64,000 nt of DNA from Nocardioides cynanchi (GTDB lineage Bacteria > Actinomycetota > Actinomycetes > Propionibacteriales > Nocardioidaceae), in contig NZ_CP044344.1 of NCBI RefSeq assembly GCF_008761635.1, positions 1,426,001 to 1,490,000 of the forward strand. The letters run 5' to 3'. Below the pieces are notes generated by a model. The model was not told where the DNA came from. It saw nothing but the letters and a program-made list of their open reading frames with translations, and did no database searches. The translations under genes were made by a program, and so were the position numbers. Position 1 is the first letter of the stretch, and every line of letters begins with the position of its first letter. Shown piece after piece: positions 11,769 through 34,007 of the stretch.

Positions 11769-12671
11769 ATGACGACCACCGCACCGGACGCCGCGAAGGC
11801 GCCACCCACCGACGTCGTGTACGACGTCCGGGACATCACGCTCACCTTCGGCGGGGTCACCTCGCTCTCCGAGCTCAGCCTGCAGATGCACCGCGGCGAG
11901 ATCCTGGCGATCATCGGCCCCAACGGCGCCGGCAAGACCTCGCTGTTCAACTCCCTGACCGGGGTCTACACCCCGCAGAAGGGCTCGATCACCGTGGCCG
12001 CACGGGTCGGTGACCAGCCGACCTCGGTGATCTACGAGTCGGGGCTGATCACGAAGAAGACCCGCAGCCTGAAGACCCATGTGATCAACCACCTCGGCGT
12101 GGCCCGGACCTTCCAGAACATCCGGCTCTTCCCGGCCCTGACCGCGCTGGAGAACGTCAAGGTGGGCGTGGAGACCCGGATGAAGTCCGGTCCCGTCGCC
12201 GCCATGCTCGGCCTCCCCCGCCAGCGCCGCGAGGAGCGCGAGTCAACTGTCCGCGCCGTCGAGCTGCTCCGCTTCGTCGGGCTCGCGCACCGTGCCAACG
12301 AGCTGGCCGGCTCCTTGGCGTACGGCGAGCAGCGCCGTCTCGAGATCGCCCGGGCGCTCGGGACCGACCCCGGCGTGATCCTCCTCGACGAGCCGGCGGC
12401 CGGCACCAACCCGGTCGAGAAGCGCGAGCTGGCCGACCTGATCCGCAAGATCAACGAGGTCGACGGGATCTCCGTGCTGCTGATCGAGCACGACATGAAG
12501 CTGGTGATGTCGGTGGCCCACCGGCTGGTCGTGCTGAACTTCGGGATCAAGATCGCCGAGGGCTCGCCCGAGCAGATCCAGAAGGACCCCGCCGTCGTCG
12601 CGGCCTACCTCGGCACCGCGGACGACGACGAGCTGCCCGCAGCGACCGACGAGCCCGGAGGTGCCTCGTGA
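11769..12671 (+). CDS. livG: Branched-chain amino-acid ABC transporter ATP-binding protein LivG
   Basis: A 300-aa ATPase subunit. Seen: Walker A GPNGAGKTS, a family-typical insertion between Walker A and the Q-loop ending VARTFQNIRLF (Q-loop Gln), signature LAYGEQRRLEIARAL in place of LSGGQ as is usual in LivG, Walker B VILLDEPAAG, and switch LLIEHDMKLVM. The acidic C-terminal tail (DDDELPAATDEPGGAS) is an extension. ATP hydrolysis here drives the LivHM channel together with LivF. Starts 4 nt after livM and overlaps livF by 4 bp. Confidence 0.95.
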   Translation: MTTTAPDAAKAPPTDVVYDVRDITLTFGGVTSLSELSLQMHRGEILAIIGPNGAGKTSLFNSLTGVYTPQKGSITVAARVGDQPTSVIYESGLITKKTRSLKTHVINHLGVARTFQNIRLFPALTALENVKVGVETRMKSGPVAAMLGLPRQRREERESTVRAVELLRFVGLAHRANELAGSLAYGEQRRLEIARALGTDPGVILLDEPAAGTNPVEKRELADLIRKINEVDGISVLLIEHDMKLVMSVAHRLVVLNFGIKIAEGSPEQIQKDPAVVAAYLGTADDDELPAATDEPGGAS

Positions 12672-13384
12672 GCCTGCTCGAGGTCGACGACATCGAGGTG
12701 CGCTACGGCGCGATCCGGGCCCTGAAGGGTGTCTCCTTCGAGGTCGACGAGGGCGAGGTCGTGGCCCTCCTGGGTGCCAACGGCGCCGGCAAGACCACCA
12801 CCCAGAAGACCGTGTCGGGGATGATGCGGCCGAGCCTGGGCGAGATCCGCTTCGACGGCGACCGGATCGACGGCCTCCCGGCGCACGAGCTGATCCACCG
12901 CGGCATCTGCCACGTGCCCGAGGGCCGGCGGGTCTTCCCGCGGATGACGGTGGCGGAGAACCTCGACATGGGCGCCTTCCGCTTCAAGCGGGCCGACCCG
13001 GAGATGCTGGCCCGCGTCTACGAGCTGTTCCCGCGGCTCAAGGAGCGGATCGCGCAGTACGCCGGGACACTCTCCGGAGGCGAGCAGCAGATGCTCGCGA
13101 TCGGCCGGGCCCTGATGGGCAAGCCGCGGCTGCTGCTGCTCGACGAGCCGTCCATGGGGCTGGCTCCGCTGATCGTGCGCCAGATCTTCGACATCGTGCG
13201 AGAGATCAACAAGGAGGGCGTGACCGTGCTGATCGTGGAGCAGAACGCCGCCCAGGCGCTCGGTCTGGCCAGCCGCGGCTACGTCCTCGAGACCGGTGAG
13301 ATCGTGCTGTCCGGGTCCGGCCAGGACCTCCTCTCCGACGATCGGATCCGCGCGGCGTACCTCGGCGAGGAGATCAACACCTGA
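12668..13384 (+). CDS. livF: Branched-chain amino-acid ABC transporter ATP-binding protein LivF
   Basis: 238 aa, the family's usual size. Seen: Walker A GANGAGKTTT, ICHVPEGRRVFPRMTVAENL (Q-loop region with the LivF-typical PEGR), signature LSGGEQQMLAIGRALM, Walker B LLLLDEPSMGLAP, and switch LIVEQNAAQAL. Pairs with LivG. The GTG start overlaps the livG stop (GTGA). Last gene of the operon; the tRNA-like gene begins 35 nt after its stop, with its own probable promoter overlapping the livF end. Confidence 0.95.
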   Translation: MSLLEVDDIEVRYGAIRALKGVSFEVDEGEVVALLGANGAGKTTTQKTVSGMMRPSLGEIRFDGDRIDGLPAHELIHRGICHVPEGRRVFPRMTVAENLDMGAFRFKRADPEMLARVYELFPRLKERIAQYAGTLSGGEQQMLAIGRALMGKPRLLLLDEPSMGLAPLIVRQIFDIVREINKEGVTVLIVEQNAAQALGLASRGYVLETGEIVLSGSGQDLLSDDRIRAAYLGEEINT

Positions 13385-13419: not shown

Positions 13420-13492
13420 GCCCCGGTATCCCAACGGCAGAGGAAATGGTCTCAAACACCATCGAGTGTGGGTTCGAATCCCACCCGGGGCA
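13420..13492 (+). tRNA. tRNA-like gene, anticodon CAA (Leu), short variable loop
   Basis: A 73-nt cloverleaf. Acceptor GCCCCGG pairs perfectly with CCGGGGC, discriminator A, no encoded CCA. Anticodon stem ATGGT/ACCAT is perfect, with loop CTCAAAC giving anticodon CAA (decodes UUG, Leu). The T arm GTGGG-TTCGAAT-CCCAC is canonical. The D arm has TCCC opposite AGGA, so one C-A mismatch, and an 8-nt loop with GG. The variable region is only 5 nt (CGAGT), whereas bacterial tRNA-Leu is class II with a long variable arm. It folds like a class I tRNA with a Leu anticodon and may be a non-standard or specialised tRNA. The LAGLIDADG gene follows 35 nt downstream. Confidence 0.8.
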
Positions 13493-13527
13493 CGAGGGAT
13501 GTCGGCACCCAGAGCCACAGTGGTGGC

Positions 13528-14274
13528 ATGTACACGCGCCGGGCCAGAGAGGCCGCGCTGGCGGCCCTCGCGGCAGGCGAGACCGCCGCGGAGGTCAGTC
13601 GTCGTCTCGGTGTCGCGCGCTCGACGCTACGCGCCTGGACCCGTGATCCGCAGGGCCGGGCGGAGGACGACGACTGCCCCGGCTGCTCTGGCTGCGCGGT
13701 CGACGGGTCCGCCTACGCTGCCCTCCTGGGCTTCTATCTCGGAGACGGATGCCTCTCGGCGGCGGCGCGCTACGTCGTCTTTCGGGTGTCCTGCGACGCG
13801 TCTTACCCGCGCGTCGTCGACGACGTCACCCACCTGATCACCCTCGTGCGACCTGGGTCCAAGGTCTTCCACGTGACCGCACCCGGCACCGTGGTCGTCC
13901 AGTCCCACTGGAAGCACTGGCCGTGCCTGTTCCCCCAGCACGGTCCCGGGCGCAAGCACGAGCGCCCGATCGTCCTCGAGCCCTGGCAGCGACAGGTCGT
14001 GGCGGCGCACCCGGGAGACTTCCTGCGGGGGCTCTTCCACTCCGACGGCAGCCGGACGGCCAACTGGGCCAGGCGCACGGTCCAGGGGCAGCCCCGTCGC
14101 TACGACTACCCGCGCTGGGAGTTCGTGAACCACTCCGCCGACATCCTCGGGCTCTGCACGTGGGCTCTCGACCTGTGCGAGATCCGGTGGCGCCGACCAC
14201 GGCCGGTGTGCGTCGCGGTCTCCCGACGTGACGACGTACGCCGTCTGGACGAGCTGATCGGCCCGAAGGCCTGA
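13528..14274 (+). CDS. HTH and two-motif LAGLIDADG protein linked to a tRNA-like gene
   Basis: 248 aa. Seen: a helix-turn-helix at about 5-38 (ALAAGETAAEVSRRLGVAR), a short Cys cluster CPGCSGC (50-56), LAGLIDADG motif 1 LLGFYLGDG (66-74), a central conserved-looking block HWPCLFPQHGPGRKHERP (130-147), and motif 2 FLRGLFHSDG (165-174). Both motifs keep the acidic Asp used for metal binding in LAGLIDADG endonucleases. It is not inside an intron or intein; it stands alone right after the tRNA-like gene, and its frame stays open back through that gene to a TTG at 13408. The RBS is weak (GGTGG). From memory, homologues occur widely in actinobacteria as uncharacterised proteins. Nuclease, maturase or regulatory roles are all possible. 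Converges on pyk with 2 nt between. Confidence 0.8.
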   Translation: MYTRRAREAALAALAAGETAAEVSRRLGVARSTLRAWTRDPQGRAEDDDCPGCSGCAVDGSAYAALLGFYLGDGCLSAAARYVVFRVSCDASYPRVVDDVTHLITLVRPGSKVFHVTAPGTVVVQSHWKHWPCLFPQHGPGRKHERPIVLEPWQRQVVAAHPGDFLRGLFHSDGSRTANWARRTVQGQPRRYDYPRWEFVNHSADILGLCTWALDLCEIRWRRPRPVCVAVSRRDDVRRLDELIGPKA

Positions 14275-14276
14275 GC

Positions 14277-15725
14277 TCAGGTGATCCGGCGGTAGGCCGG
14301 GGTGACCTCGTGCAGGGCATCGCCCATCCGGTGGATCCGCATCGCGTTGGTCGAGCCGGGGATGCCCGGCGGCGAGCCGGCGATGATCACGACCTGGTCG
14401 CCCTCGGAGACCCGGCCGATCTCCAGCAGCGCCTCGTCGACCTGGCGCACCATCTCGTCGGTGTGCTCGACGTCGCCGGCCAGGAAGGTCTCGATGCCCC
14501 AGCTCATCGACAGCTGCGAGCGCACCTTGGCCACCGGGGTGAAGGCGAGCACCGGCACCCGCCCGCGATAGCGCGAGAGGCGACGGGCCGAGTCGCCGGA
14601 CTGGGTGAAGGCGACGAGGTACTTCGCGCCGACCCGGTCGGCCACCTCGGCCGCGGCCTTGGCGATCACGCCGCCGCGGGTGCGGGGCTGCCAGTCGATG
14701 GCGGCCATGCTGGCCAGGGCGTGGTCCTCGGTGGAGGCGACGATCCGGGCCATGGTCTCGACGGTCTCGATCGGGAACTCCCCGACGCTGGTCTCGCCCG
14801 AGAGCATCACCGCGTCCGCACCGTCGAGGACCGCGTTGGCGACGTCGGAGGCCTCCGCGCGGGTCGGGCGGGGGTTGCTGATCATGGACTCCAGCATCTG
14901 CGTCGCCACGATCACCGGCTTGGCGTTGCGGCGAGCCTTGTCGATCACCCGCTTCTGGAGGAACGGCACGTCCTCCAGCGGGCACTCGACCCCGAGGTCG
15001 CCCCGAGCCACCATGAACGCGTCGAACGCCTTGACCACCTCGTCGAGGTTGTCGATCGCCTGCGGCTTCTCGATCTTGGCGATGATCGGCAGCATCACGC
15101 CTTCTTCGCGCATGATCGCGCGGACGTCGTCGGCGTCGCTGCCCGAGCGCACGAAGGACAACGCGATGAAGTCGACCGAGGTCCGCAGCGCCCAGCGCAG
15201 GTCCTCCTTGTCCTTCTCCGACAGGGCGGGCACGCTCACCGCCACCCCCGGCAGGTTGAGGCCCTTGTGGTCGCTGACCTTGCCGGCCACCTCGACCTCG
15301 GTGGTGACGTCCTCACCGTCCACGCCGACCACGCGCAGCCGGAGCTTCCCGTCGTCGACCAGGATCGGGTCGCCCGGGCTCACGTCGCCCGGCAGCCCGT
15401 CGTACGTCGTGCCGCAGATGCTGGCGTCACCCTCCACGTCGCGCGTGGTGATCACGAAGGTCGCGCCCTTGGCCAGCTTGACCTTGCCGTCCTTGAAGGT
15501 GCCCAACCGGATCTTCGGGCCCTGGAGGTCGGCGATGATGCCGACGCCGTGCCCGGTGTCGTCGGAGGCCTGGCGGACCATGTCGTAGCGGCGCCGGTGC
15601 TCCTCGTGGCTGCCGTGGCTCATGTTCAGCCGGGCGACGTCCATGCCGGACTCGACGAGCTTGCGGATCATCTCGGGGGTGTCGACCGCGGGACCGAGGG
15701 TGCACACGATCTTGGCTCTACGCAC
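14277..15725 (-). CDS. pyk: Pyruvate kinase
   Basis: 482 aa; converts phosphoenolpyruvate and ADP to pyruvate and ATP. Seen: RRAKIVCTLGPAVDTPEMI at the N-terminus, GVDVGRLNMSHG-type active-site strand (here MDVARLNMSHGSHEEH), B-domain (about 70-170), catalytic Lys/Glu in IIAKIEKPQAIDNLDEV, FMVARGDLGVECP, and VMLSGETSVGEFP. A TTG 9 nt upstream is possible, but the GTG at 15725 sits 7 nt after a TAGGTT -10 box (15733-15738) and gives the family's normal N-terminus, so it is preferred as a leaderless start. Confidence 0.96.
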   Translation of the reverse strand: MRRAKIVCTLGPAVDTPEMIRKLVESGMDVARLNMSHGSHEEHRRRYDMVRQASDDTGHGVGIIADLQGPKIRLGTFKDGKVKLAKGATFVITTRDVEGDASICGTTYDGLPGDVSPGDPILVDDGKLRLRVVGVDGEDVTTEVEVAGKVSDHKGLNLPGVAVSVPALSEKDKEDLRWALRTSVDFIALSFVRSGSDADDVRAIMREEGVMLPIIAKIEKPQAIDNLDEVVKAFDAFMVARGDLGVECPLEDVPFLQKRVIDKARRNAKPVIVATQMLESMISNPRPTRAEASDVANAVLDGADAVMLSGETSVGEFPIETVETMARIVASTEDHALASMAAIDWQPRTRGGVIAKAAAEVADRVGAKYLVAFTQSGDSARRLSRYRGRVPVLAFTPVAKVRSQLSMSWGIETFLAGDVEHTDEMVRQVDEALLEIGRVSEGDQVVIIAGSPPGIPGSTNAMRIHRMGDALHEVTPAYRRIT

Positions 15726-15732
15726 GAGATCC

Positions 15733-15738
15733 AACCTA
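15733..15738 (-). promoter_or_regulatory. -10 box of pyk, leaderless
   Basis: Reads TAGGTT on the minus strand, 7 nt before the GTG start of pyk. This spacing would place +1 at the start codon. Confidence 0.45.
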
Positions 15739-32936: not shown

Positions 32937-34007
32937 TCAGGGCAGGTAGCGGCGGGAGCCGACGTACTCCGACTGGTACGCCGTCGTCGCGGTGGCGATC
33001 ACCTGGACCCGCGCCCCGGTGTGGGGACTGTGGACCATCAGCCCGTTGCCGACGTACATCGACACGTGATGGACCAGGCCGTTCGTCGCGTAGAACAACA
33101 GGTCACCCGGGCGTGGCCGGGCGGCCGAGGTGCCGTGCTGCGACTGCGGCTCGGCGTCTCGGGGGATCCGGATCCCGTGCACCCGGTAGTCGAGCCAGGT
33201 CAGACCCGAGCAGTCCAGGCCGAATCCGGAGGCACCGGCCCAGAGGTAGGGCAGTCCGAGGAACTGCTCGGCGGTGTGGACCAGGCTCGCTCGCGTCGGT
33301 GCCCGGGCCGGGCTGCCGGTCGGGTGGACGACGACGACGTGGCCGGCGATCCGGCGGACCCGGCCGCTGGGCGCCATCACCCGGACGAACCCGTCGGTGA
33401 TGCCGACCACGGGGAGGCTGGTGCCGAAGCTGATCGGGAACAGCGGCACAGCCCCCGCGTCGTCGGTGCGCAGCTCCGCGATCCGGACCACCACCGTCGC
33501 CACCTGCGCGGAGCCGGTCGGCGGCCGGGCGGTGAGCTGTCGGCGTGGGACCCAGCCCGGGTAGCCGCGAGGGTCGGCCGGGGTCGGCTGGGAAGGGACG
33601 ACGACACGAGCCCAGCCGGGGCGGTCGGGAGGGAGCGCCAGCACTCGCACCCGGTCGCCCAGCAGCGCCTGCGTGTCCGCCCGGCCGCTGAGCCCGCGCC
33701 GTTCGGCCAGGGTCAGGTCCGCCAGCCAGGTCTCGATCCGTGCCGGGCGGGTCAGGGCGGGCGCGTCGACCGCACGCGGTGAGCTCGGTGACCGCCAGAG
33801 GGTGGCCACCGAGACCGAGACCCACGCGTCGTGCCCGACGGCCAGCGGCGGCTGGTCGCCGCCGCCCCGCGGGTGCGCAATCGTCACCGTGGAGGCTGGC
33901 CGGTCCGAGCTCCCGGGGTCGGCCGACGTCCGGTCGGCCGCGCACGAGCCGACCAGGAGCGCTGCCACCAGCGCCGCCAGGGTGACCCTGCCCACGGACC
34001 TGCGCAC
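32937..34007 (-). CDS. NlpC/P60 peptidoglycan endopeptidase, lipoprotein
   Basis: 356 aa. Seen: a signal peptide with lipobox LVGSC (about Cys22), a long middle part with SH3b-like strands (around 70-220), and a C-terminal NlpC/P60 domain with catalytic Cys in GLDCSGLTWLDYRVHG, His in LVHHVSMYVGNGLMVHS, and YLWAGASGFG just before. It would cut peptide bridges (gamma-D-Glu-meso-DAP) in the cell wall outside the membrane. The frame is open further upstream; the GTG at 34007 gives a proper signal peptide, with GGAG a little close (2 nt). The precise start is uncertain. Confidence 0.88.
   Translation of the reverse strand: MRRSVGRVTLAALVAALLVGSCAADRTSADPGSSDRPASTVTIAHPRGGGDQPPLAVGHDAWVSVSVATLWRSPSSPRAVDAPALTRPARIETWLADLTLAERRGLSGRADTQALLGDRVRVLALPPDRPGWARVVVPSQPTPADPRGYPGWVPRRQLTARPPTGSAQVATVVVRIAELRTDDAGAVPLFPISFGTSLPVVGITDGFVRVMAPSGRVRRIAGHVVVVHPTGSPARAPTRASLVHTAEQFLGLPYLWAGASGFGLDCSGLTWLDYRVHGIRIPRDAEPQSQHGTSAARPRPGDLLFYATNGLVHHVSMYVGNGLMVHSPHTGARVQVIATATTAYQSEYVGSRRYLP

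Follow-up and report, generated by a model that had tools for sequence, protein, structure and literature searches.

Homing endonucleases that lie outside introns and inteins have been described next to tRNA genes in T-even phages, where the free-standing SegB adjoins such genes (PMC2988022, PMC13096335). The locus analysed here, which lies in a window of 64,000 nucleotides of the Nocardioides cynanchi chromosome, resembles these phage systems in that a putative endonuclease gene stands outside any intron or intein, beside its presumed target, linked to a tRNA gene, with a predicted promoter of its own and with co-exchange of the flank (PMC2988022, PMC13096335). It differs from SegB in encoding a LAGLIDADG instead of a GIY-YIG protein, in residing on a bacterial chromosome and not in a phage, and in its association with a single isotype (Leu), usually with a single anticodon, the tRNA being the sole housekeeping copy of the host and the promoter being of the DNA-damage type.

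Homing endonucleases and tRNA genes are also found together in Mycobacterium mucogenicum and its relatives, in which clusters of tRNA genes gained by horizontal transfer include an HNH endonuclease gene and a short-variable-loop tRNA-Leu(TAG) (PMC6582537). Those clusters are phage-like and consist of extra tRNAs, whereas the present locus holds one housekeeping tRNA at a conserved position together with a LAGLIDADG protein. A comparable case on the protein side is WhiA, which has a degenerate LAGLIDADG domain that has lost its catalytic residues and a C-terminal helix-turn-helix (HTH) (PMC3781837). The window protein shares with WhiA (DUF199) the combination of LAGLIDADG fold and HTH in Gram-positive bacteria and matches it structurally; unlike the universal WhiA, it is optional and mobile, and its N-terminal HTH and its two retained, invariant catalytic Asp residues place it outside that family. 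The fold with two LAGLIDADG helices and acidic residues is likewise that of I-Tsp061I, I-AniI and I-DmoI, which are intron-encoded, whereas the window protein is free-standing, bears an additional HTH and Cys pair and matches them at an identity of about 10–17%. Finally, the synthetic Cleave and Rescue (ClvR) gene drives direct a nuclease against an essential gene and supply a recoded resistant copy; a similar logic would operate here in bacteria, with the resistant copy placed at the targeted locus.

The tRNA-Leu(CAA) gene of the window

The tRNA-Leu(CAA) gene occupies positions 13420–13492 of the forward strand, where Rfam RF00005 scored 58.5 bits (gathering score 29) and ARAGORN placed a tRNA-Leu(CAA) at 13420–13493. 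The gene is complete and its cloverleaf fold was recovered, with a short variable loop (type I) and A73 as the discriminator. A preliminary description made from the sequence had presented a whole, 73-nt tRNA-like gene with anticodon CAA; its coordinates and completeness hold, and the term tRNA-like does not, because a tRNA scan of the genome (4.0 Mb, single contig) and the sequence read-out identified the window copy as the only tRNA-Leu(CAA). It is therefore a housekeeping tRNA, and its reading as an extra orphan tRNA is ruled out on the same ground. Bacterial tRNA-Leu is normally expected to carry a long variable arm (type II). This arm is missing from the window tRNA, and the ORF-linked tRNAs as a whole include both types. 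In the same genome the GAG and CAG isoacceptors are type II, with long variable arms, and those with UAA and UAG are, like CAA, type I. tRNA-Leu(UAA) might also read UUG, so the essentiality of tRNA-Leu(CAA) is uncertain. Elsewhere in the window, at 33107–33187, ARAGORN reported a tRNA-Arg(gcg) without Rfam support, which is probably a false positive.

A comparison of 136 distinct ORF-linked tRNAs revealed pairing in 99.7, 96 and 100% of cases in the acceptor, anticodon and T stems, respectively, whereas shuffling of the partners gave 76, 55 and 90%. Up to five pair types occur per stem position, and A73 is the discriminator in all 136. The linked tRNA-Leu genes appear to have remained functional, with a Leu anticodon, A73 and a cloverleaf held by compensatory change. 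Hypervariability peculiar to tRNA-Leu(CAA) is not fully upheld, since tRNA-Leu(UAA) and tRNA-Leu(UAG) vary as well and among relatives flip between types I and II without any linked ORF, so that the flips have other causes too. No such flips were seen for tRNA-Leu(GAG), which served as a control and hardly varies among 30 Streptomyces genomes.

The HTH-LAGLIDADG protein

Separated from the tRNA by 35 nt and on the same strand, an ORF of 248 aa (13528–14274) runs from an ATG at 13528 to a stop codon at 14272–14274 and encodes a free-standing HTH-LAGLIDADG protein, a putative homing endonuclease. Its N-terminal residues 4–45 (13537–13662, forward strand) form a helix-turn-helix that is matched above cut-off by Pfam HTH_23 and HTH_Tnp_1, followed by the Cys pair C50/C53 (13675–13686, forward strand), which is conserved in 146–163 of 167 ORFs and possibly builds a metal site together with C133 and H138. 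The two LAGLIDADG motifs, LLGFYLGDG (13723–13749) and FLRGLFHSDG (14020–14049), both on the forward strand, contain the catalytic residues D73 and D173, each of them invariant in all 167 aligned ORFs. The match to Pfam LAGLIDADG_3 falls slightly below the cut-off. The AlphaFold model (pLDDT 89.7) matches the monomeric LAGLIDADG endonucleases I-Tsp061I, I-AniI and I-DmoI in the PDB (E 2e-7 to 7e-6), with WhiA as a less close fold match, and a search of PDB sequences with the window protein returned only weak HTH matches and I-AniI at an E of 1.2. In sequence and model alike, the protein thus has two LAGLIDADG motifs with acidic catalytic residues and the characteristic fold. The HTH, Cys cluster and two intact motifs outside any intron or intein, 35 nt after the tRNA, which the preliminary description had listed, are borne out by Pfam, alignment and model.

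The median dN/dS across the ORF family is 0.14, and the comparison places the catalytic residues under strict purifying selection. This ratio, the invariant catalytic Asp residues and the fold match suggest that the endonuclease stays active. Neither an intron nor an intein was recognisable at the locus, and the tRNA is uninterrupted, on which ground an intron, an intein or a tRNA-splicing maturase is rejected.

Linkage to tRNA-Leu across the Actinomycetes

In about 160 loci compared across the Actinomycetes, a tRNA-Leu gene adjoins every homologue with a readable flank, almost always within 250 nt, usually with the anticodon CAA, with UAG in one genus (g15) and with UAA in viral contigs. Matches were present in 26 of 58 relatives, broken copies and fragments included, and tRNA-Leu(CAA) stands beside the ORF in 30 of the 30 loci returned. 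A scan of named genomes found at least 556 relatives, the best 80 of which were examined for flanking tRNA genes; in this set, from Nocardioides, Kribbella, Actinopolymorpha, Streptomyces, Kitasatospora, Micromonospora, Streptosporangium, Nocardiopsis, Xylanimicrobium and others, tRNA-Leu(CAA) was seen in all 79 loci with a readable upstream side, usually 28–220 nt upstream of the ORF and on the same strand. An even sample of the class (395 genomes) contained about 80 genomes with full or broken ORF copies, and tRNA-Leu lies beside the ORF in 79/79 evaluable loci. In these class-wide loci the tRNA may stand on either side of the ORF and in either orientation; the ORF is divergent from tRNA-Leu(UAG) in g15 and from tRNA-Leu(CAA) in genus g75. 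The pairing of ORF and tRNA-Leu is real and far beyond chance. Even where the surrounding genes vary, the tRNA-Leu neighbour persists, which makes the tRNA gene the common factor of the loci compared.

Phage and plasmid records yielded no homologue; in metagenomic viral contigs only distant relatives were present (33–34% identity), which directly follow tRNA-Leu(UAA) in L351–L353. The likely ATG of the L351 copy lies a few nucleotides past the tRNA. Three other viral contigs (L356–L358) have distant relatives 35 nt after a tRNA-Met.

A conserved, undescribed two-part system had been proposed in the preliminary description, and the linkage (tRNA-Leu in every evaluable locus of both sets of 79, nearly all within 250 nt) supports it across the class. 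No earlier description of a chromosomal LAGLIDADG–tRNA-Leu cassette was found in the literature searched, which left most subscription journals outside its scope.

Occupied, empty and decayed states of the locus

The fixed downstream flank is the pyruvate kinase gene (pyk, 14277–15734, reverse strand), which lies outside the cassette and served as a marker for the host tree. Readable loci of the Propionibacteriales and of the named set usually follow the order response regulator (reverse strand), tRNA-Leu(CAA), optional ORF and pyruvate kinase (reverse strand), the response regulator being ANTAR-type by sequence. In the window a branched-chain amino-acid ABC transporter ATPase (12668–13384) replaces the response regulator of the relatives, a local rearrangement 5' of the tRNA.

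The tRNA keeps its position in genomes that lack the ORF, and the distance from tRNA to pyk is often 7–170 nt in empty loci and about 800 nt in occupied ones. Remnants or broken copies of the ORF were seen in four Nocardioides loci (G007, G014, G033 and G034), and likewise in several genomes of the class-wide sample. Because the tRNA persists where the protein is absent, the protein is, by this comparison, the optional member of the pair. The check that the preliminary description had set against a joint system gives a split outcome: homologues without a nearby tRNA-Leu did not occur, but relatives that lack the protein retain the tRNA in its usual position, so that the tRNA is not dependent on the protein.

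The presence of the ORF at this one locus is patchy among sister species, and on the Nocardioides Pyk tree the tRNA type changes seven times and ORF presence nine times. The ORF behaves as a free-standing element, placed between tRNA and pyk, with the tRNA exchanged along with it, and its horizontal spread into the same locus is seen in occupied, empty and decayed states. A phage or ICE remnant integrated at the tRNA is rejected on account of the conserved chromosomal flanks and of the phage and plasmid records, in which no homologue was found, the viral matches being distant relatives in metagenomic contigs.

Exchange of tRNA and ORF between strains

The ORF tree separates a Nocardioides clade A, with type I tRNAs, from a clade B, with type II, and a Streptomyces clade S1 (46 loci, all type I) from S2 (15 loci, mostly type II). 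S2 is a single clade on the ORF tree, yet it is scattered on the tree of the flanking Pyk, where 52 Streptomyces loci show nine switches for ten S2 loci and where forcing S2 into one clade lowers the log-likelihood by 361 units (AU p 2.6e-42). Close Streptomyces pairs (Pyk ≥93%) have a mean tRNA identity of 0.62 when their ORFs belong to different clades and of 0.79 when they belong to the same one, the extreme pair having identities of 0.989 for Pyk, 0.63 for the tRNA and 0.55 for the ORF. Along the locus, identity is lost some 50 nt upstream of the tRNA and regained at the stop codon of the ORF, both in Streptomyces and in the Nocardioides pair L125/L143. The non-coding 50 nt could have diverged independently; the divergence of the tRNA is not explicable in this way. 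Sequence comparison thus shows, for Streptomyces and Nocardioides, that tRNA and ORF are exchanged jointly, as a unit whose chromosomal position is constant. Four Streptomyces loci (L211, L215, L268 and L311) whose Pyk sequences are 97–99% identical carry three tRNA-Leu(CAA) alleles with a mutual identity of 63–76%.

The tRNA type is imperfectly tied to the ORF clade, with 15 changes on the ORF tree, and a strict one-to-one coupling is rejected as an absolute rule. When strongly supported branches alone are counted, four independent pairs are left, for which the sign test is underpowered and not significant (p 0.25). At the level of orders and genera the ORF tree mostly tracks taxonomy, so exchange would occur mainly among close relatives and inheritance would be largely vertical. 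An ORF from Xylanimicrobium (L178, Micrococcales) is nested in Nocardioides clade A yet lies beside a type II tRNA, and a transfer between orders is possible in this case.

Most Kribbella strains have ORF B on the reverse strand followed by a type I tRNA and ORF A on the forward strand; in Kribbella catacumbae a frameshifted B and a type II tRNA, both on the reverse strand, precede A on the forward strand, and one Kribbella strain has a type II tRNA with B. This arrangement reads as two complete tRNA+ORF units placed head to head, with later loss of one redundant tRNA, K. catacumbae having retained the opposite member of the presumed tRNA pair. Paralogous ORFs in opposite orientations flank one tRNA-Leu(CAA) in loci of Kribbella and relatives (L134–L140, L168, L170, L177 and L179), and in two others (L276 and L295) one tRNA-Leu(CAA) is followed by a tandem pair of family ORFs that branch apart on the ORF tree.

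Promoter and expression of the ORF

The space between tRNA and ORF contains, at 13499–13521 of the forward strand, a candidate promoter, ATGTCGGCA-N8-CACAGT, which resembles, with an imperfect −10 element, the PafBC/RecA-NDp consensus tTGTCRgtg-8 nt-TannnT (PMC5656591). The −10 element ends 6 nt before the ATG, and the mRNA of the window ORF is predicted to be leaderless. The activator of PafBC is single-stranded DNA (PMC11804915). The motif NTGTCRGYR-N8-NANNNT recurs between tRNA and ORF, commonly 6–7 nt before the start codon, the strict pattern in 46 of 167 ORFs (Markov expectation 0.1) and a relaxed one in almost every Kribbella copy and the majority of those in Nocardioides. In the Propionibacteriales loci 21 matches fall in 3.5 kb upstream of the ORFs, against a background of 0.013 per kb, and the motif is about 460 times commoner there than elsewhere. 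Genus g15 has a perfect consensus match, but about 30 nt before the start; the motif copies outside g15 have an imperfect −10. A search for the motif in the ORF loci of Streptomyces and Micromonospora did not find it. Most ORF copies outside these two genera are predicted to bear a DNA-damage promoter of the PafBC type, often giving a leaderless mRNA.

Five exact PafBC/RecA-NDp sites are present in the genome of the window, one of them 75 nt before recA and the remaining ones before a DnaQ-like exonuclease gene and three other genes. Three of the five are leaderless-like, with the start codon 7 nt after the −10.

Discussion

The locus is probably a homing endonuclease cassette of the free-standing LAGLIDADG kind, chromosomal in location, which takes along a tRNA-Leu gene that is recoded yet functional. 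It would behave as a selfish element whose homing comes with a built-in rescue. The mobile unit would consist of about 50 nt of upstream sequence, the tRNA-Leu gene, the ORF's own promoter and the endonuclease ORF. The enzyme would cut a resident tRNA-Leu allele of differing sequence, or its immediate flank, recombination repair would then copy the entire block, and the resident tRNA would be replaced by a recoded, functional one that the carried enzyme leaves uncut. Since a genome normally has one copy of this UUG-decoding tRNA, the cell would retain a working gene only by accepting the cassette. The prediction that the self allele resists and foreign alleles are cut is drawn entirely from the divergence of the tRNA alleles. 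Control by DNA damage, through single-stranded DNA and PafBC, may time expression to damage or DNA uptake. Of the three hypotheses offered in the preliminary description, the tRNA-targeting element fits best, and nothing positive speaks for a domesticated nuclease or maturase that works on the RNA. More tentatively, and at slightly less than even confidence, the system may be a natural 'home-and-rescue' drive, whose damage-responsive endonuclease destroys foreign versions of a single-copy tRNA-Leu and installs its own recoded, functional and uncuttable one, with rapid turnover, hyperdiversification and type I/II switches across the Actinomycetes as the outcome.

Ordinary intronless homing, with an intergenic or flanking target and an adjacent tRNA that is merely co-converted and has no role in rescue, is unlikely, although it has precedents in phage T4, where SegF, SegG and MobE co-convert the sequence that they adjoin and the target of SegB is a tRNA intergenic region (PMC2988022). 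With an ORF placed between tRNA and pyk, the tRNA is also expected to be co-converted. Such homing would not account for a neighbour that is always tRNA-Leu in spite of differing neighbourhoods (UAG in g15, UAA in viral contigs, any side or orientation), nor for a tRNA divergence far above that expected from co-conversion with near relatives.

The cassette could instead be kept because its divergent tRNA withstands toxins or defence nucleases that cleave tRNAs (anticodon nucleases, Septu-like), with the endonuclease helping to spread the resistant alleles. Septu cuts the variable loop of tRNA-Tyr, and SegB amplifies tRNA genes for escape (PMC13096335); the changes in tRNA-Leu are located on the anticodon arm, the variable arm and the D-arm, and UAA and UAG isoacceptors diversify too. 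This explanation is nevertheless improbable, as no tRNA-Leu nuclease was identified and resistance alone leaves the invariant catalytic residues and the restriction of the ORF to tRNA-Leu unexplained.

More improbable still is a domesticated host protein, a WhiA-like regulator or a factor in tRNA processing that works on the tRNA or its gene and is inherited vertically with the locus. The HTH and LAGLIDADG architecture, the presence of WhiA among the fold matches, the strong purifying selection and the long persistence in Streptomyces would suit such a protein; the catalytic Asp that WhiA has lost (PMC3781837) is invariant here, the ORF is patchy among sister species, decays and is repeatedly exchanged horizontally, and tRNAs of both types work without it. 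A regulator that uses the tRNA-like fold as its mRNA leader, also proposed earlier, is disfavoured and rejected as the main explanation by the predicted ORF promoter of most non-Streptomyces loci, by terminator-like hairpins between tRNA and ORF in 23 of 65 Streptomyces loci (control 0.8) and by the divergent tRNA and ORF in two genera.

Within a genus, few sequences are normally as well conserved as housekeeping tRNA genes. In two Streptomyces strains with Pyk 98.9% identical, the tRNA-Leu(CAA) genes share only 63% identity, because the gene has been exchanged together with the linked nuclease. If homing with built-in rescue operates as proposed, the cassette would be a natural counterpart of engineered rescue drives, would explain the replacement mode of evolution of one actinobacterial tRNA and would provide a large, ready set of sequence-specific endonucleases, each with its presumed non-target. 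The loss of the long variable arm in some actinobacterial tRNA-Leu genes becomes a testable question.
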